Assembly (NCBI GenBank): GCA_003224085.1
Contig: QHYK01000100.1
Coordinates: 1-34,296, forward strand
Origin: Acidobacteriota bacterium
Lineage (GTDB): Bacteria; Acidobacteriota; Terriglobia; Acidiferrales; UBA7541
Length of the DNA stretch: 34,296 nucleotides
Reading direction: 5' to 3'
In this document: piece after piece, positions 25,991 through 34,256 of the stretch
Position numbering within the stretch: position 1 is the stretch's first letter
Layout: each line of letters begins with the position of its first letter
The notes under the pieces: model-generated
What the model was told of the DNA's origin: nothing
Seen by the model: only the letters and a program-made list of their open reading frames with translations
The model's database searches: none
Program-made: the position numbers and the translations under genes

Positions 25991-27340
25991 TTATGAGGGA
26001 GAGGCTAGGCGGTACATGGTGATGCCACTGAGGAGCTTGGGATAGAAATCGGTGGACTTCTGCGGCATGACTTCGCCGGCTGTGGCGATTTTCATGACCT
26101 GATCTATGCGGCAGGGGTTCAAAAGAAACGAAATTTGCGCGCGGCCGGAGTCTACGGCCTCAAGTGCGGCGGTGGCTTCGCGTTCGTAGGTGAGATGGGC
26201 TTCGGCGGTGACGGCTTGCGGCGTGATGCCAAGAGCGGGCTCGAGGATTCCTTCGTGCAGGAGGACGACGTCGAGTTCGCGCTGGAGCCGCGAGACGCTG
26301 GGAAGGAGTTGGGCAAGATGGACGCCGTCGCGAAGGGTAAGAACATAGAAAGCGCGTTTCCGTGAATCGGTGGCGGGGTAGACGCCGATGGCACGGCGCG
26401 GGCAGACGCCGTGGAGGCACGCGAGGAATTTTTTGCGAGCTTCCGCTTTCTCTGCGTGGCTCGAGAAGGAAAATTCTTCAGTGGCGAACCAGGGCTCAAG
26501 GTGGCGGCGTATCGCGGGCCAGGAAAAATCGTGGATGTTCGCCGCGACTCGATGCGTGGGCAGAATGGTGAGTCCTTCGCTCCGGGTGTTGATAAAGGTC
26601 ATCATGACGCGTTCGAACGGCGCATGGGGTTCGATTTTTCCGGCGTGGGCGCGGCGCTCGCTGCGGTAAGCGAGCGCAGTTTCGTAGCGGTGATGGCCGT
26701 CGGCGATGACCAGCGTTTGATCCTGCATGGCTTTCTGAATTTCGGCGACGCTATCCGGGCGCGAGACAATCCATAGGCGGTGGATGACGCCATATTCGTC
26801 GCAAAGCTGAGTGTCGGGAGCGGCAGACTCGGCATCGGCGAGAATTTCGTCCACGCGCCGCTGAGAATCGGAATAAAGCATGAAGAGCTGGCCAGTGTGC
26901 GTTTGCGTGTGGCGAAGAAGTTCGAGTCGGTCGGCTTTTGGGCCGGAGAGCGTTTGTTCGTGGCGGAAGACGACGCGGGCGGAATAATCTTCGAGCTGTC
27001 CCGCTCCGATAAAGCCGCGCCGAGTGCGGCGTTCTTCGGTGCCGGGCATGGTGTATTCTTGTGAGTAAGCGTAGAACGAAGGCTCAGGGTCCTGCTGCAA
27101 AATGCCATTGGCGATCCAACCTGCGAGAGCGGCGGCCGCACGCGTGTATACGTTGTTTTGGGGCGTGTCGGCCGGAAGGCTACGGCCTTTTTCAACGGCG
27201 ATCAGGTTGTGCGGGTCCGCGGCGTAATATTTTTCTTGCATTGCGGGAGAAATCTTGTCGTAGGGTTGCGTCAAAACGCGCTCAAACGGAGCGCAGGCCG
27301 GGTTGTAGCGAAAGGCGCGAAAGGGAAAAACGCGAGCCAT
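25991..27340 (-). CDS. DUF1015 family protein
   Basis: 449 residues, usual length for this widespread cytoplasmic family of unknown function (COG4198). Recognisable stretches: 'MARVFPFRAFRYNPACAPFE' at the start, 'VLTQPYDKISPAMQEKYYAA', 'ADPHNLIAVEKG', and the well-conserved 'VIADGHHRYETALAYRSER', followed by 'VMMTFINTRSEGLTILPTHR'. The last two suggest a catalytic or ligand site with two His and a Tyr. GGAGA lies just before the ATG. No operon partner. DUF1015 proteins are sometimes described as HpcH/kinase-like or SerC-linked, but the sequence here gives no function. Confidence 0.88.
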   Translation of the reverse strand: MARVFPFRAFRYNPACAPFERVLTQPYDKISPAMQEKYYAADPHNLIAVEKGRSLPADTPQNNVYTRAAAALAGWIANGILQQDPEPSFYAYSQEYTMPGTEERRTRRGFIGAGQLEDYSARVVFRHEQTLSGPKADRLELLRHTQTHTGQLFMLYSDSQRRVDEILADAESAAPDTQLCDEYGVIHRLWIVSRPDSVAEIQKAMQDQTLVIADGHHRYETALAYRSERRAHAGKIEPHAPFERVMMTFINTRSEGLTILPTHRVAANIHDFSWPAIRRHLEPWFATEEFSFSSHAEKAEARKKFLACLHGVCPRRAIGVYPATDSRKRAFYVLTLRDGVHLAQLLPSVSRLQRELDVVLLHEGILEPALGITPQAVTAEAHLTYEREATAALEAVDSGRAQISFLLNPCRIDQVMKIATAGEVMPQKSTDFYPKLLSGITMYRLASPS

Positions 27341-27649: not shown

Positions 27650-28330
27650 ATGTATCTTATGACGGCTGCGGATTTTTCATCCGTGCGCGCGCTGATCTTC
27701 GATTTAGACGGCACGCTGATTGATTCGAAACAAGATCTAATTCGCTCTGTCAATGCAATGCTAGTCGAGATGGGGCACAAGACTCTCCCCGAGGACACCA
27801 TTTCCGGCTACATCGGACACGGCGCACCAGTTTTAATCAGCACAGCGCTGGGAAACGGGGCTACGGAAGAGGAGCGCGAGCGGGCCTTGAAATTCTTCCT
27901 GGCGCACTACGAGGAGCACAAGCTGGATTCGACGCGAGCGTATGCGGGAGTTGCTGAGGCGCTTGAGGGCTTGCGCGAGTTTCCCATGGCCGTGCTGACC
28001 AACAAACCGGTGCGCGTGAGCCGCCGCATCCTGGAACGACTGGGCCTGGCGAAATATTTCCGCGCCGTGTATGGCGGAAACAGTTTTGAGACAAAGAAGC
28101 CGGATCCCCTGGGCGCGAAGAAAGTTCTGGAGGAACTCGGCGCGAGCGCCGGACAAGCGATGATGGTCGGCGATTCCGAAGTGGATGTGCAGACGGCGCG
28201 GAACGCCGGGACGCTCGCAGCAGCGGTCAATTATGGATTTGGGACGCACGACCGCGCGGCGTATCCCGCAGACATTTATTTGGACCGCCTGACAGACCTG
28301 GCACCGTTGCTCAAGAACCACAAACGATAA
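27650..28330 (+). CDS. gph: HAD hydrolase, phosphoglycolate phosphatase-like
   Basis: 226 residues with HAD motifs 'IFDLDGTLIDS' (Asp18, Asp20), 'VLTNKP', 'KKPDP' and 'MVGDSEVDVQTARNAG', and an alpha-helical cap of the Gph/PGP type. Such enzymes hydrolyse 2-phosphoglycolate from oxidative DNA repair or metabolism, but close relatives act on other small phosphates. ATG 27650 is used; ATG 27659 (fourth residue) is equally possible, and neither has a good ribosome binding site. No link to the neighbours is evident apart from the glycosyltransferase gene that follows 86 bases later. Confidence 0.85.
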   Translation: MYLMTAADFSSVRALIFDLDGTLIDSKQDLIRSVNAMLVEMGHKTLPEDTISGYIGHGAPVLISTALGNGATEEERERALKFFLAHYEEHKLDSTRAYAGVAEALEGLREFPMAVLTNKPVRVSRRILERLGLAKYFRAVYGGNSFETKKPDPLGAKKVLEELGASAGQAMMVGDSEVDVQTARNAGTLAAAVNYGFGTHDRAAYPADIYLDRLTDLAPLLKNHKR

Positions 28331-28416: not shown

Positions 28417-29529
28417 GTGGTAATAGGCCTGTTCCCAGAACTGGATGCACCCGGAGGGGTGCAGCGCGTGGGGCGCCATTTGGCGGCTGTGCTGACTGAA
28501 TTTGCATCCAGCCGCGGGTGGGACTGCCGCCTGCTTAGCTTGAACGATTCCCCAGAACTGCACCGCGCTTCGGTAGGCGGGCGGGAGTTTGTGTTTACCG
28601 GATGCGAGAAGGCCAAGGGGCGCTTCGCGGTGACGGCAATGCGAGCTGCGAGGCGAGATGCAAAGCTGGTGCTCGCCGGACACCCGAATCTCGCGCCCGT
28701 TGTGCAGGCAATGCGCCTGGCGGCGCCGAAGATGAAAACCATTGTCTGCACACATGGCGTCGACGTGTGGGAACGCCTCGGACGCCTGCGGCGGGCAGCG
28801 CTGAGGGGCGCCCATCTTGTGTTGGCGCCGAGCCGCGATACGGCCGAGCACCTCGCCACGCAGCAAGAGGTGCCGCGCGAGCGGATCCGAGTGCTGCCTT
28901 GGGCGCTTGATCCGCAATTCGAGGCCATGCTAGCGGCCAATACCCCCGCCAAGCCGCCTAGAGATTTCCCGGCTGGGCGAGTGATCTTAGCGACCGGCCG
29001 CTGGGCAGCGTCGGAACGCTACAAGGGCATGGATACGCTGATTACGGCGCTGCCCCGGCTTCTGACGACTTGGCCGCAGCTGCAACTGGTGCTCGCGGGA
29101 TCGGGAGACGACCGGGCGTGGCTCGAAGATTTTGCGGAGAAAAACGGCGTGGTGCGCCACGTGCATTTTCTCAGCGGGCTGGGTAACGAGGAACTGGCGG
29201 CGTGCTACAGCGCCTGCGAGATCTTTGCTTTGCCCAGCCGCGGCGAAGGATTTGGCCTGGTGTACCTGGAGGCCATGGCGTGTGGCAAGCCGGTGATCGG
29301 GGGCACCCACGGAGGAGCGCCGGAGCTGATTCAGGATGGCGTCACCGGTTATTTGGTGCCCCATGGGGATCCCATTCAACTGGCCACCGCTATCCAAACC
29401 TTGCTGGCGGACCCCCAGCACGCAAGAGCAATGGGCGCGCGCGGGCGGCAAACCGTGGACCATGAATACCGCTTCCAGAACTTCGTGAAAGCCCTGAAAA
29501 AAATCCTGCGCGATCAATGCGAATCCTGA
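28417..29529 (+). CDS. GT4-family glycosyltransferase
   Basis: About 370 residues of a GT-B glycosyltransferase. The N-terminal domain carries the acceptor loop 'ELDAPGGVQRVGRHLAAVL'. The C-terminal domain carries the donor site 'PSRGEGFGLVYLEAMACGKP' with the E-x7-E pair, then 'GGAPELIQDGVTGYLVP'. It probably transfers a sugar to a lipid-linked glycan on the cytoplasmic face. It begins with GTG 28417; the frame is open upstream but shows no better start. Its end overlaps the start of the next, broken, glycosyltransferase by 13 bases, so they were once one transcription unit, presumably for exopolysaccharide or O-antigen. Confidence 0.87.
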   Translation: MVIGLFPELDAPGGVQRVGRHLAAVLTEFASSRGWDCRLLSLNDSPELHRASVGGREFVFTGCEKAKGRFAVTAMRAARRDAKLVLAGHPNLAPVVQAMRLAAPKMKTIVCTHGVDVWERLGRLRRAALRGAHLVLAPSRDTAEHLATQQEVPRERIRVLPWALDPQFEAMLAANTPAKPPRDFPAGRVILATGRWAASERYKGMDTLITALPRLLTTWPQLQLVLAGSGDDRAWLEDFAEKNGVVRHVHFLSGLGNEELAACYSACEIFALPSRGEGFGLVYLEAMACGKPVIGGTHGGAPELIQDGVTGYLVPHGDPIQLATAIQTLLADPQHARAMGARGRQTVDHEYRFQNFVKALKKILRDQCES

Positions 29530-30729
29530 ACGTCACCGAGACCTACGCGCCTTTTTTGGAATTTGGTGGGGCCGCCCGTAAAGGTGCGGGCGCTTGCCGA
29601 AGGCCTCGCGGAGAAGGGACACGAAGTGACGGTCCTAACGGCAGATTGGGGGCTCGAAGGACGCGGAAAAATCCACCAAAACAAAATTGGATGGGAACGG
29701 TCGCCTCTCGGCTGGCGGTGCCGGGAAAACGGCGTCGAAGCTATCTATTTGCCGACGTGGCTGCATTACCGGCAAGTGAGTTGGAACCAAGAGGTGAAGC
29801 GGTATTGCCGGGCGCGGCTGGGAGAATTCGATATTGCGCACATTTTTGGTTTGTACGATTTGCTGGGGACGACGGCGGCGGCGGCTTGTCGAAAGCGCGC
29901 GATTCCTTACCTAGTCGAACCGATCGGGATGTTTATCCCTATCGTCCGGAAGCTGTGGCTTAAGCGAATGTATCACCGGGTGTGGGGAAGAAGGATGCTT
30001 CAGGGGGCGAGTGCTGTTGCGGCCACTTCACAGCATGAGATCGAAGAGCTGGTGACGGGAAGGATTCCGCGCGCGAAGATGGTCATGAGGCGAAATGGAG
30101 TGGAGGCACCCGAGGCTTGGCCGGAGCCGGGAACTTTTCGTGGAAAATTGGGAATTCCAGTGGAAGCTCGCGTGGTTCTTTTCTTGGGCCGACTGAACGT
30201 GAAAAAAGTCCGGCTTTGCTGTTGCGAGCTTTTGCCCAAGTGAAGAAGCGATTGGAGGGAGTGCCTCTGCGGTTGGTGTTTGCCGGGCCAGACGAAAGCG
30301 GCGTGAAGCACAGTTGGAGCAAATGGCGGCCCAATTGGACATTAAGAGAGAAGTTCAGTTGCCTGGGCCGGTGTTTGGCCAGGACATGTGGGCGGCGACC
30401 GGGACGCGGATGTTTTCGTGCTCCCCTCGCAAAGCGAGAATTTCGGAACACGGCTGCGGAGGCGGTGGCAGCCGGCACGCCAGTGGCGTGTGACCGAACA
30501 ATGCGGGATCGCGCCGCTTCTCGCCGATGAGGCTGGCCTGGTGGTGAAGCATGATTTGCAAGAGCTAACCGAGGCGCTTGCCCGGATATTGACCGATGGC
30601 GAACTCCGTAGACATTTCCGGGCCGGATGCGCTAAAGTCCACCTGACCCCGGGATGGGAAGGTCCTATTAGCGAAATCCAGGACCTGTATGCTCGGTGTC
30701 TCTCTTGGAACAACGCCGGAAAAAGTTAG
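29517..30729 (+). pseudogene. GT4-family glycosyltransferase broken by several frameshifts
   Basis: It starts normally ('MRILNVTETYAPFLEFGG') and ends normally, but the continuous protein requires about six frame changes: at the GGGG run 29568-29571 (one G too many), at the A6 run 30202-30207 (one A too few), and near 30310, 30398, 30445 and 30488. Between breaks, the pieces read well: 'VKVRALAEGLAEKGHEVTVL', 'YLVEPIGMFIPIVRKLWLKR', 'SPALLLRAFAQVKKRLEGVP', 'RDADVFVLPSQSENFG', 'TAAEAVAAGTPV' and 'QCGIAPLLADEAGLVVKHDL'. These are typical GT4 donor-site and capsule-type features. It is either a recent pseudogene or locally poor sequence. Longest intact piece is about 29563-30243. Confidence 0.85.
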
Positions 30730-30759: not shown

Positions 30760-31623
30760 GTGCCCAAACCACGACATCCCGTCTTCCGCTCTGTGTGGTG
30801 GAGCTGCAACCTGCTCTTGGCGGCGGCGTTCTTAGGCGTCCTCGTCGCAGGACTGCGGGAATTTGGGCTGCGCTATTACTTGGATGGTTTTTCTGACGCC
30901 ATTGCTCCCAGCGTCTTACCGGCGGAGCCAAAAGTTCAGGCCATTCTGAACTGGATGCGCATCGAGCCATTGCGGGCCGTCGCGGCGAATCCCCGCGCGC
31001 TTTCCTTGCGAGACCCGTACATCACCCTCAACTACCAGCAGTTATTGCGTGTTTGCGGAACCGCCACGAATGCCTTCCTGATCCTCGCACGAGAAGATGA
31101 TTTGTCCGTGCGCCGTCTGCTCTTATTGGCTCTCGACGGAAGCACCAAACATGTTGTAGCCGAAGTGTTCATGGATGGTCGCTGGATCGTGGTCGATCCA
31201 AGATACCACTTGATCATGAAGGACGCCCAGGGACGCCTTCTGACGCGTCAAGATCTTCAGAACCCGGCCGTCTTCCGGCAAGCGGTCGGTCCCGTCGCGG
31301 ATTATCCCCGGAATTATAACTACGAACATACGACACAGGTACGCCTGGAACGCGTGCCGCTCTTCGCCGCGTGGCATCTGCGAAAGGTTCTTGACACCAT
31401 CTGTCCTTCCTGGGATGAAGCGGCAGATTGGAGCCTGCTGCTAGAACGTGAATCTTTTTTTTACTTTACGCTTGCCTGGGTAGCCATGATTTTCCTCCTC
31501 GTGGTGCGCTTTCTGCCCGGCTGGTATGCAGATAGCCGGTTGAGAATGCCTCGTTTTCCTTTGCGCGACCGCGTGCTTCGCGCGAGTGTCGCCTTCTTTT
31601 CGACCCCGGAGATCAAAGAATAG
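30760..31623 (+). CDS. Membrane-anchored transglutaminase-like protein
   Basis: 287 residues starting at GTG 30760. One membrane helix near the N-terminus (about 14-34) and another near the C-terminus (about 232-252) flank a soluble domain. This domain has the order Cys99 ('RVCGTATNAFLIL'), His131 ('STKHVVAEVFMDGRWIVVDP') and Asp146, the spacing of the transglutaminase-like Cys-His-Asp triad, and the 'DGRWIVVDPRYH' strand is typical of that fold. It could be a peptidase or amide-forming enzyme outside or at the membrane. It is followed one base later by the amidotransferase gene, and lies within a glycan locus, so a role in modifying or exporting a surface glycan is inferred. No exact family is recognised. 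Confidence 0.75.
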   Translation: MPKPRHPVFRSVWWSCNLLLAAAFLGVLVAGLREFGLRYYLDGFSDAIAPSVLPAEPKVQAILNWMRIEPLRAVAANPRALSLRDPYITLNYQQLLRVCGTATNAFLILAREDDLSVRRLLLLALDGSTKHVVAEVFMDGRWIVVDPRYHLIMKDAQGRLLTRQDLQNPAVFRQAVGPVADYPRNYNYEHTTQVRLERVPLFAAWHLRKVLDTICPSWDEAADWSLLLERESFFYFTLAWVAMIFLLVVRFLPGWYADSRLRMPRFPLRDRVLRASVAFFSTPEIKE

Positions 31624-31624
31624 C

Positions 31625-33583
31625 GTGTGCGGCATCTGCGGAGTCGCCTTCAGTTCGCGCAATACGCAAGCGGAAGCGCGAGTGCGGGCGATGGTCGCTG
31701 CGATGCGCCACCGCGGCCCTGACGAAGAGGGGCTTTTGCTTGGCGAAGTCCGCGCCCCAGGTCTCGCGCTGGGGATGACCCGGCTGAGCATCATCGACCT
31801 GGCAGGCGGCCATCAGCCCATTTGGAACGAAACCAACGACGTAGCCGTAGTGTTCAACGGCGAGTTGTACGGCTACCGCGACTTGCGTGAGCGCCTGGTC
31901 CTCTGCGGGCACCGCTTTGTAACACAATCCGACACGGAGATTCTCGTTCACGCCTGGGAAGAATGGGGGGAAGACGCGCTTAATGAACTGCGCGGAATGT
32001 TTGCGTTCGCCTTGCTCGATCTGCGCGAGCGCTATGCAACGACGCCGATTCTTTTTCTTGCCCGCGATCCGTTGGGAATCAAGCCGCTCTACTACACGCA
32101 GACGCCGGAAGGGTTTGCATTCGCTTCGGAAGTGCGAGCGCTGCTTGCCGCGGGAGCCGCTCCAAAGACTCTTTCGCGAGATGCGCTGACCTCTTATTTG
32201 CTCTTCGGCAGTGTTAGCGAGCCAGTGACGCTCGTGGAAGGCGTGTTCAGCCTGCCACCGGGGCATCGCATGTTGCTGCACGTTCCCGAGCGCCGTCGCG
32301 TTCCGCGTGCGCGGCAATGGTGGGACCAAGTGCTTTCACCTGCAGCCCGGGATACGCGAAAGCCGCGCGACCTTGCTGCGGCGGCGAAAAAGTTGCGCCC
32401 AATGCTTGAAGACGCCGTGCGGGCGCATCTGATCGCGGATGTGCCAATAGGACTTTTCTTATCGAGCGGGCTGGATTCGGGTGCCATTGCCGCGCTGGCA
32501 GCAAAGGCGCAAGCAGGGATTCAGAGCTTTACGTTGACGTTTCCGGGCACGCCATTTGATGAAGCGGAAGCCGCAGGAGCGATCGCGAAGCATTGCGGAA
32601 CCAGGCACTCAGAGGTGCCACTGGATGGTAAGGCCGTAGTCGAGCGGCTGGACGAAGCCATTGCCGCACTGGACCAGCCCACTATGGACGCGGTGAATAC
32701 GTATTTCGTTTCCTGGGCGGCGAAAAAGTTAGGCCTGAAAGTGGCGCTTTCCGGTTTGGGAGGCGATGAGCTTTTTGCCGGATACTCGACGTTCGCCGAT
32801 ACGCCGCGACTATCAAGACTGATTCGCACCGCCTGGTTCGCGCCGGCAGTGGTAAGACGTTGGACGAAACAATTCGTTGCTGCGCTTGCTGGGAATCGTA
32901 GCTCACCGGATGCGGGGAGCAAGGCGGCCGCCGCCTGGGTCTCTCCCGACGCGTTGCCACATCCTTATTTTTTCACGAGAACGCTCTTTCCGCCTGGAAG
33001 ACTGGAGAGAATCATCGAGCCGCGGTTCCGTCCCAGCACCATCGGGCCGGATGGCGTTACGCTCGAACCGACATGGGTTGGATGGCTGCAAAGAGCTGCC
33101 GACGAAGCGCGCAAGCTGGAACCGGTGGCGGGAATTTCGTGGCTGGAGATGCGCAGTTACATGGCGAGCACGCTGCTGCGGGACACGGATTCTGTAAGCA
33201 TGGCGCAGTCGCTCGAAGTGCGAGTTCCGCTGCTTGACACGCTCCTGATGGAATTTGCGAACGCATTGCCGGATGCAGCGCGGCGCCGGCCCGGCCAACC
33301 GAAAGCCTTGCTTGTGGAAGCGATTCGAGACTTGCTGCCAGGAGAAATTCTCGCGCAAAGGAAACGCACGTTCGCGCTGCCTTGGGAAGAATGGTTGCGT
33401 GGACCTCTGCGAAAAAAGCTGGAGGCGAGTTTCGCGAATCCCGCACCTGCTTTAAAGCCCGTGCTGCGCCGCGGTGGAACACAAAGCGTTTGGAACGACT
33501 TCCTCGCTGCAAAAACCACATGGTCTCGCCCATGGTCTCTCTACGTGCTGAATGAGTGGTGCCGCCGGCATCTCGCCGCATGA
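31625..33583 (+). CDS. asnB: Asparagine synthase (glutamine-hydrolysing) family amidotransferase
   Basis: About 652 residues. I chose GTG 31625, which gives 'MCGICGVAFSSRN' with the N-terminal catalytic Cys2 of the Ntn glutaminase domain. The frame extends upstream to 31586, but that start would bury the Cys. Glutaminase features: 'MRHRGPDEEG', 'VVFNGELYGYRDLR', 'TQSDTEILVHAWEEWG', 'GMFAFALLD'. The synthetase domain has the pyrophosphatase loop 'LFLSSGLDSGAIAAL' and 'LSGLGGDELFAGYSTF'. Members in glycan loci amidate sugar acids or aminoacyl groups, while others make asparagine; the location beside glycosyltransferases favours the former. It begins one base after the transglutaminase-like stop. 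Confidence 0.9.
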   Translation: MCGICGVAFSSRNTQAEARVRAMVAAMRHRGPDEEGLLLGEVRAPGLALGMTRLSIIDLAGGHQPIWNETNDVAVVFNGELYGYRDLRERLVLCGHRFVTQSDTEILVHAWEEWGEDALNELRGMFAFALLDLRERYATTPILFLARDPLGIKPLYYTQTPEGFAFASEVRALLAAGAAPKTLSRDALTSYLLFGSVSEPVTLVEGVFSLPPGHRMLLHVPERRRVPRARQWWDQVLSPAARDTRKPRDLAAAAKKLRPMLEDAVRAHLIADVPIGLFLSSGLDSGAIAALAAKAQAGIQSFTLTFPGTPFDEAEAAGAIAKHCGTRHSEVPLDGKAVVERLDEAIAALDQPTMDAVNTYFVSWAAKKLGLKVALSGLGGDELFAGYSTFADTPRLSRLIRTAWFAPAVVRRWTKQFVAALAGNRSSPDAGSKAAAAWVSPDALPHPYFFTRTLFPPGRLERIIEPRFRPSTIGPDGVTLEPTWVGWLQRAADEARKLEPVAGISWLEMRSYMASTLLRDTDSVSMAQSLEVRVPLLDTLLMEFANALPDAARRRPGQPKALLVEAIRDLLPGEILAQRKRTFALPWEEWLRGPLRKKLEASFANPAPALKPVLRRGGTQSVWNDFLAAKTTWSRPWSLYVLNEWCRRHLAA

Positions 33584-33617: not shown

Positions 33618-34256
33618 ATGAACATTTTGGGGGTCAACGCGTACCCATTGAGGTGTCATCGCGTTTCCGCCTTCTTTGGGACTTTTTTACAGTGCCGTGA
33701 CGCAATACCTCGGCTTCTTGAGATTCGGCGACGAATATAACGTCGTGGGCCTGGCGGCCTACGGGCAACCGCAACAACTGGAACCGTTCCGCGACATCGT
33801 GCGCTTCGAAAATGGTTCTGGCGCAAATGGATTTAAGTTGGGCCTTGATTATTTCTCGCATCGCACGGGCCCGGAAATGTCTTGGGCGGAAGCGGATAAA
33901 ACGCCCGCGCTCGGCAAGTTGTTTTCGGAGGCCATGGAGAGGCAGTTCGGTCCAGCGCGCGCCGCAGACCAAACGTTAGAGCAGCGGCACCGCAACCTGG
34001 CGGCCAGATTCTTGGCAAGCCGCGCTCGTTTGTGATGAGTCAAGCCTTTTGGGGCCCGGGATATTCCCGTGAGGAGATTCGCCGCGCAATCGATTCAAAT
34101 GAGCTGGCACAAAAAGGCTGCGAAATCGCCGAACTCAAGGAAGGGGAATTGATGCGCCGCACCGCGGTGGTCATCACTGACGGCCATCGATTGCTTCCAA
34201 CGCACGCAAATGGACGCGCCCTGGTCCTCGGCGATTTTCTTATCACCAGACAGTGA
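33618..34256 (+). pseudogene. Carbamoyltransferase remnant with internal deletions
   Basis: Three segments of one carbamoyltransferase (NodU/CmcH family) in different frames. Segment A (33618-33644) is the family N-terminus 'MNILGVNAY'. Segment B (about 33664-34031) gives 'FPPSLGLFYSAVTQYLGFLR', 'DEYNVVGLAAYGQP', a middle stretch. Segment C (about 34032-34256) gives 'AFWGPGYSREEIRRAI', the start of the C-terminal domain. Roughly 150-200 codons between A and B and the 'GGVALN' region between B and C are missing, including the metal and carbamoyl-adenylate sites. It is therefore non-functional. Carbamoylation is a typical decoration in surface-glycan loci. Confidence 0.75.

Follow-up and report, generated by a model that had tools for sequence, protein, structure and literature searches.

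We found that two co-directional genes, here named TG and ASN, form a real, conserved and selected pair in a cluster of surface-glycan type on contig QHYK01000100.1 of an Acidobacteriota bacterium (assembly GCA_003224085.1). The window analysed is this whole contig, 34,296 bases of a 6.8-Mb genome. TG encodes a putative membrane protein with a transglutaminase-like domain, and ASN encodes an asparagine-synthase-type enzyme. Our preferred reading, to which we give even chances, is that one enzyme forms carboxamides on a cell-surface glycan and the other then edits them. The TAG stop codon of TG (31621-31623) is followed by one base and then by the GTG start codon of ASN at 31625, as the initial annotation of this DNA had described (TAGcGTG).

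30760..31623, plus strand: TG, a 287-aa membrane protein with a predicted order of N-terminal tail inside, helix at about 14-32, extracytoplasmic transglutaminase-like domain, helix at about 234-252 and basic C-terminal tail inside
31625..33583, plus strand: ASN, a 652-aa asparagine-synthase-type glutamine amidotransferase with the N-terminal nucleophile Cys2 and the ATP-site motif SSGLDS

Conservation of the TG-ASN pair

Among 61 genomes searched, TG is present in 34 of the 36 from the genus (the window's own included) and in none of the 25 others. ASN follows TG after 1-4 bases in all 34, and the adjacency, whose restriction to this one genome the initial annotation had envisaged as a way to fail, is thus a shared property. 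The spacing is 1 bp in 23 genomes, 3 bp in three and 4 bp in eight. The 4-bp group includes G007, which has only the C-terminal part of TG at a contig edge, and G025 (L060), which has an in-frame stop codon in TG; in G005 (L059), where ASN is frame-broken, the 4-bp gap was read from the sequence and the script value was 333 bp. In ten pairwise comparisons, the ratio of non-synonymous to synonymous substitution rates (dN/dS) is 0.10-0.25 for TG and 0.07-0.22 for ASN, indicating that both genes are under purifying selection. The close relatives in a public collection come from metagenome assemblies of Acidobacteria and carry the labels gp2, Acidoferrales or Candidatus Acidiferrum. One further record, L086 (CAJCHZ010000027.1), is titled Betaproteobacteria and bears the acidobacterial cluster; its title is probably wrong.

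The two genus genomes without TG keep ASN (74% and 68%) together with a carbamoyltransferase gene. Only about 200 bases extend from the upstream glycosyltransferase gene to ASN in these genomes (L149:7105-7218 and L150:7500-7717), and in one of them, G031, this stretch still encodes the C-terminal tail of TG. TG has therefore been lost secondarily in both, with ASN retained. TG and ASN stay together where the carbamoyltransferase gene is missing, broken or non-adjacent, in G000, G018, G010 and G007 (genome search) and in G009 (within the stretch analysed only). The asymmetry of loss fits TG acting after ASN, without proving it, and shows that ASN does not need TG. A second, degenerate TG-like piece is found in L063 (G030:C42), where the catalytic His is replaced by Pro, the reading frame runs into a different protein and the stretch has no ASN match.

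A profile search across 95 genomes of the order recovered TG in 51 genomes belonging to six of 17 genera, all in one family, and in none of six genomes from two other families of the order. ASN orthologues (E up to 1e-145) are found in 67 of the 95: 48 genomes have both genes, three TG only, 19 ASN only and 25 neither. ASN is thus present in 19 of the 44 TG-less genomes, and TG occurs without a detected ASN orthologue in 3 of 51. The rarity of TG without ASN, together with the frequency of ASN without TG, suits TG working downstream of ASN. Among the 59 genomes outside the genus the corresponding numbers are 14, 3, 17 and 25, a significant co-occurrence (p 0.004, for related genomes and uncorrected for kinship). 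The two genes are adjacent in six of these 14 genomes with both, 1.8-5.1 kb apart in five and on different contigs in three; in 18 public loci from outside the genus, the gap is -1 to 64 bp in nine. Tight adjacency is a trait of the genus, and shared clustering is wider, being usual in the same family and often with genes in between. In one such relative (L100:6852-9995), a 2-oxoglutarate-Fe(II) oxygenase gene, identified by scanning, and further unscanned genes lie between TG and ASN.

In the wider phylum, two of the 396 genomes beyond the window's own gave weak TG matches, which are other transglutaminase-domain proteins (L066 and L067) with no ASN match in about 3 kb of each. Frames with a transglutaminase-like motif were sought next to ASN homologues of other families and next to paralogous genes; none turned up in 20 loci, a weak miss given the crude motif. 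The same scan recovered the known TG in L098, and the window itself was outside the scanned set. No plasmid-borne relatives of TG were found.

The two proteins

The initial annotation had proposed a Cys-His-Asp domain between two membrane helices, and the family alignments agree with this. Residues 54-147 of the window's TG match Transglut_core (PF01841) with 22.2 bits, just below the 23-bit cut-off, and 39 of 41 aligned family members match it at E up to 0.01 (best 4.9e-11). None of Cys99, His131 and Asp146 varies among 33 genus sequences, nor does the triad among 41 sequences with identity down to 38%. This alignment (A2) comprises the window and 40 of 49 public loci, with L096 left out for an internal stop codon and L073, L076, L081, L083, L088, L112, L114 and L116 also left out; alignment A1 comprises the window, 23 of the 29 loci L002-L030, L051 and L052. 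Hydrophobic stretches at 14-32 and 234-252 stand on either side of the domain, and the tails beyond them carry positive charge. Both stretches exceed the hydrophobicity threshold in 30 of the 41 sequences, and the tails are non-negative in those 30. From hydrophobicity and charge, the tails are predicted to lie inside and the domain outside the membrane.

The structure prediction that the initial annotation called for gave an AlphaFold (AF2) model with a predicted local distance difference test (pLDDT) score of 76 and a predicted template modelling (pTM) score of 0.65. In the model, a long helix comes first, another helix begins just past the cysteine, His131 and Asp146 lie on strands, and a second long helix follows. 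Structure searches with it list transglutaminases, arylamine N-acetyltransferases and peptide:N-glycanase, with weak scores (Z 5.6-6.9) that unrelated helical chains equal or exceed, and Foldseek returned no match at E 0.001 or better. Many chains of the transglutaminase superfamily appear in the Foldseek and VIA lists, at weak scores, so it is chiefly from the profile and the triad that the fold is assigned. With both of these present, the other outcome that the initial annotation had reckoned with, a first protein devoid of the transglutaminase fold, does not appear to apply. A search for solved relatives with the single protein gave one chance-level match (E 1.1), and a profile search gave none at E up to 1. 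PF01841 was the only family found for TG in a Pfam scan at E up to 1, which recovered no domain of HvyA/BTLCP (PF06035) or of TgpA (DUF3488, described as PF11992).

ASN has strong GATase_7 and Asn_synthase matches and begins with (fMet)-Cys. On TIGR01536, the model for glutamine-hydrolysing asparagine synthase, it scores 416.9 bits, above the cut-off of 267.1. The Leu of its SGLGGDE motif aligns with the Glu of SGEGSDE in Escherichia coli asparagine synthetase B (AS-B; 1ct9). We take this Glu to be Glu348 of AS-B, a residue presumably important for asparagine formation. The position is occupied by Leu or Ile in all 32 of the genus loci L031-L062. Among the 19 loci L098-L116, 13 show the Leu motif, and four of these 13 have a Gln motif as well (the motifs were not assigned to genes); the other six gave none. 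The paralogue L130 keeps Glu. A hydrophobic residue at the place of this glutamate argues against ordinary asparagine synthesis.

The surrounding cluster

The other members of the cluster in the window are as follows.

27650..28330, plus strand: HAD-type phosphatase, conserved at the upstream end of the cluster
28417..29529, plus strand: GT4a, a family-4 glycosyltransferase kept upstream in the cluster
29517..30729, plus strand: GT4b, a second glycosyltransferase whose N-terminal part is HpsP-like, below the cut-off of the HpsP model; its frame is broken in the window
33618..34250, plus strand: what is left of a NodU-type carbamoyltransferase gene after large internal deletions; many relatives have the gene intact

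A flanking minus-strand gene at 25991-27340 presumably encodes a DUF1015 protein. In relatives, the gene order is HAD phosphatase, GT4a, GT4b, TG, ASN, NodU-type carbamoyltransferase, WcaI-like glycosyltransferase, NAD-dependent epimerase, WecA-like transferase and geranylgeranyl-reductase-like flavoprotein. In G014, genes for a UDP-glucose-dehydrogenase-like protein, a WecC/TviB-like dehydrogenase, a TviC-like UDP-GlcNAcA epimerase, a GmhA-like isomerase and a Cps4B-like phosphatase lie 11-20 kb downstream of ASN. These sugar genes come from a family scan of L117 (G014) only and were recognized by reading in L118-L120. For the carbamoyltransferase, epimerase and WecA-like proteins, the Pfam matches reach their cut-offs; among NCBIfam models for the sugar genes, only a general nucleotide-sugar-dehydrogenase subfamily does so. 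Gene calls for the neighbourhood follow a simple longest-open-reading-frame rule and are approximate. No flippase, polymerase or export protein was found among the selected cluster proteins scanned.

GT4b is intact in most relatives. No intact carbamoyltransferase orthologue was found elsewhere in the window's genome, where the best other match is 39% identical. By TG identity, the closest locus (G030) has intact carbamoyltransferase and GT4b genes and a split GT4a, and the second-closest (G018, L032) has a split GT4b and almost no carbamoyltransferase. Two other clusters of glycan type, in G000:C108 (L152) and G036:C25 (L151), contain two AsnB-like genes with WecA-like and glycosyltransferase genes, and no TG was found in them.

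A putative writer and editor of glycan amides

The content of the cluster in relatives, the predicted topology of TG and published precedents together support the suggestion of the initial annotation that the pair performs amide chemistry on a surface polymer; we found no support for its other suggestion, the release of a peptide-like group. In the scheme that we propose, ASN would use glutamine and ATP in the cytoplasm to convert the carboxylate of a uronic-acid sugar into a uronamide. A candidate substrate is a hexosaminuronic acid, which fits the downstream genes of the relatives. The glycan would be assembled on a lipid carrier and then exported. From its inner-membrane anchor, with the domain on the outer side, TG would attack the uronamide with Cys99 and release ammonia, restoring some carboxylates; alternatively, the acyl group might be passed to an amine. 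Deamidation would be the simplest outcome and transamidation the bold one. The uronamide product, the export route and the action of TG on that product are what we infer.

This division into amide writing inside by ASN and editing outside by TG is modelled on two precedents. WbmE of Bordetella bronchiseptica is described as a periplasmic enzyme of the transglutaminase superfamily that deamidates uronamide-rich O chains (PMC3507681), and is the closest functional precedent for TG. The two would share their superfamily, a site outside the cytoplasm, a surface-polysaccharide locus and an action on uronamides, whereas TG differs in being a predicted two-helix membrane protein. Porphyromonas is reported to need the AsnB-type WbpS (PGN_1234) for a uronamide, and E. 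coli O121 to need WbqG for a step of this type (PMC7468200). Like these proteins, ASN is of AsnB type and belongs to a glycan-type cluster, which in relatives includes genes for nucleotide-sugar dehydrogenases and an epimerase, but it scores below the cut-off of TIGR03108, the WbpS-type model. The initial annotation knew of no named two-gene system of this kind. This is incorrect, because WbmE and the B and C proteins of lasso peptides are precedents. Among the titles and the beginnings of abstracts of openly licensed papers, we found no description of a transglutaminase paired with an asparagine synthase or synthetase in connection with exopolysaccharide, O-antigen or capsule. The general chemistry has named precedents, and its membrane-anchored form and one-base coupling in an acidobacterial genus appear to be new.

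Several observations weigh against this proposal. The cluster is partly decayed in the window, and the look for uronic-acid dehydrogenase genes covered relatives only. ASN scores 433 bits on TIGR03108 (eps_aminotran_1) against a cut-off of 816.9; five paralogues from the same genome outscore it, and none in the genome reaches the cut-off. The Leu in the AS-B motif recurs in the paralogue L126, which is located elsewhere in the genome. The first helix of TG misses the hydrophobicity threshold in 10 of the 41 sequences and the second in one. As regards the pairing, the 19 order genomes that keep ASN without TG indicate that ASN does not need TG, and the two genes lie on different contigs in 3 of the 14 non-genus genomes with both. 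Among the 18 public non-genus loci, other genes separate the pair (by 1.8-5.1 kb) in six, and ASN was not seen in three, for which 6.0 kb (L106), 0.2 kb and 1.5 kb of downstream sequence were available. When the non-genus comparison is confined to the 28 genomes that are at least 90% complete, the numbers become 7, 2, 10 and 9, and the association is not significant (p 0.25, uncorrected for kinship).

The ASN-only genomes also bear on a different reading of TG, as a cysteine protease or processing enzyme of the periplasm with control over polysaccharide export or assembly machinery, its nearness to ASN reflecting only a shared operon. ASN without TG in 19 of the 95 order genomes would suit this, as would the location of TG in a polysaccharide-type cluster and the precedent of HvyA of Caulobacter, an extracytoplasmic transglutaminase-like enzyme affecting surface polysaccharide, whose Cys-His-Asp residues are reported to be needed to restrain capsulation (PMC4241560). 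However, HvyA belongs to another family (BTLCP), and no amidotransferase partner is mentioned in the available part of that paper. The invariant partner of TG at 1-4 bp is ASN, Transglut_core is the sole Pfam listing for TG at E up to 1, and the selected cluster proteins scanned include no export machinery for such an enzyme to control. We regard this reading as unlikely. A reading of TG as an acyl-transferase, which joins a glycan or an amino acid to an amine by transamidation or by amide synthesis of the arylamine N-acetyltransferase type, with the uronamide as the activated donor, appears to us more doubtful. The usual acyl donor of transglutaminases is described as a primary carboxamide, and the fold neighbours include transglutaminases, arylamine N-acetyltransferases and geldanamycin amide synthase at Z 5.6-6.9; such middling scores are nevertheless common, with unrelated helical chains scoring the same or higher, Foldseek gave nothing at E 0.001 or better, and the amine partner is not known. 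A bold form of the acyl-transfer idea, which we hold to be decidedly improbable, makes TG a glycan transglutaminase: uronamides made by ASN would serve as acyl donors for covalent bonds between the polysaccharide and envelope amines, which could be those of protein lysines, amino sugars or peptidoglycan, and the two genes would constitute a cross-linking module anchoring exopolysaccharide. Apart from these readings, a known protein comparable with TG is TgpA of Pseudomonas aeruginosa, an inner-membrane protein with a periplasmic PF01841 domain; it is reported to have transglutaminase activity in vitro, but it differs from TG in its six helices and DUF3488 domain, and the accessible part of its description mentions no link with a glycan cluster.

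A further reading, very unlikely, takes ASN for an ordinary asparagine synthetase and its neighbour TG for an unrelated protein. The TIGR01536 score of ASN (417 bits against 267) would allow this, but the replacement of the AS-B motif Glu by Leu or Ile in 32 of 32 genus loci and the position of ASN in a glycan-type cluster led us to set ordinary asparagine synthesis aside. Least probable of all, and barely credible, is a role in the biosynthesis of lasso peptides or similar ribosomally synthesized and post-translationally modified peptides, with a B-type leader peptidase and a C-type cyclase. In lasso systems, the B protein is described as having a transglutaminase fold and its partner C as resembling asparagine synthetase, the same two superfamilies side by side, and ASN reaches 189 bits with the lasso cyclase model (NF033535). 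This falls below the cut-off of 525, a weak test given that control AsnB-like genes also fall below it (257 and 267 bits). TG, however, belongs to another transglutaminase family: it has two predicted membrane helices and no match to the lasso B2 model NF033537 or to Transglut_core3 (PF13471) at E up to 1, and ASN keeps Cys2. Furthermore, a separate gene in the window's genome does match lasso B2 (76 bits, cut-off 33) and Transglut_core3 (85 bits). With TG failing the lasso B2 models, this reading was set aside; precursor peptides were not searched for. The separate gene that matches NF033537 and PF13471 (L175:5542-5913, 123 residues), our positive control, belongs to a lasso-type set in G000:C117 of the same genome (L175:1507-5913, minus strand), where it is followed by the two AsnB-like control genes. 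An anti-phage defence role of the pair was also set aside, since no PADLOC defence model matched TG or ASN.

If the pair does make and then edit glycan carboxamides, neighbouring genes would encode both the writing and the editing of amides on a surface glycan, and would be inherited together throughout this genus of soil acidobacteria, for which the genomes used here are mainly metagenome-assembled. Natural relatives with and without TG could then serve to test what uronamide content does for charge, adhesion, or resistance to phages or predators. TG would also join Bordetella WbmE as an example of a transglutaminase-fold enzyme that acts on sugars and not on proteins.

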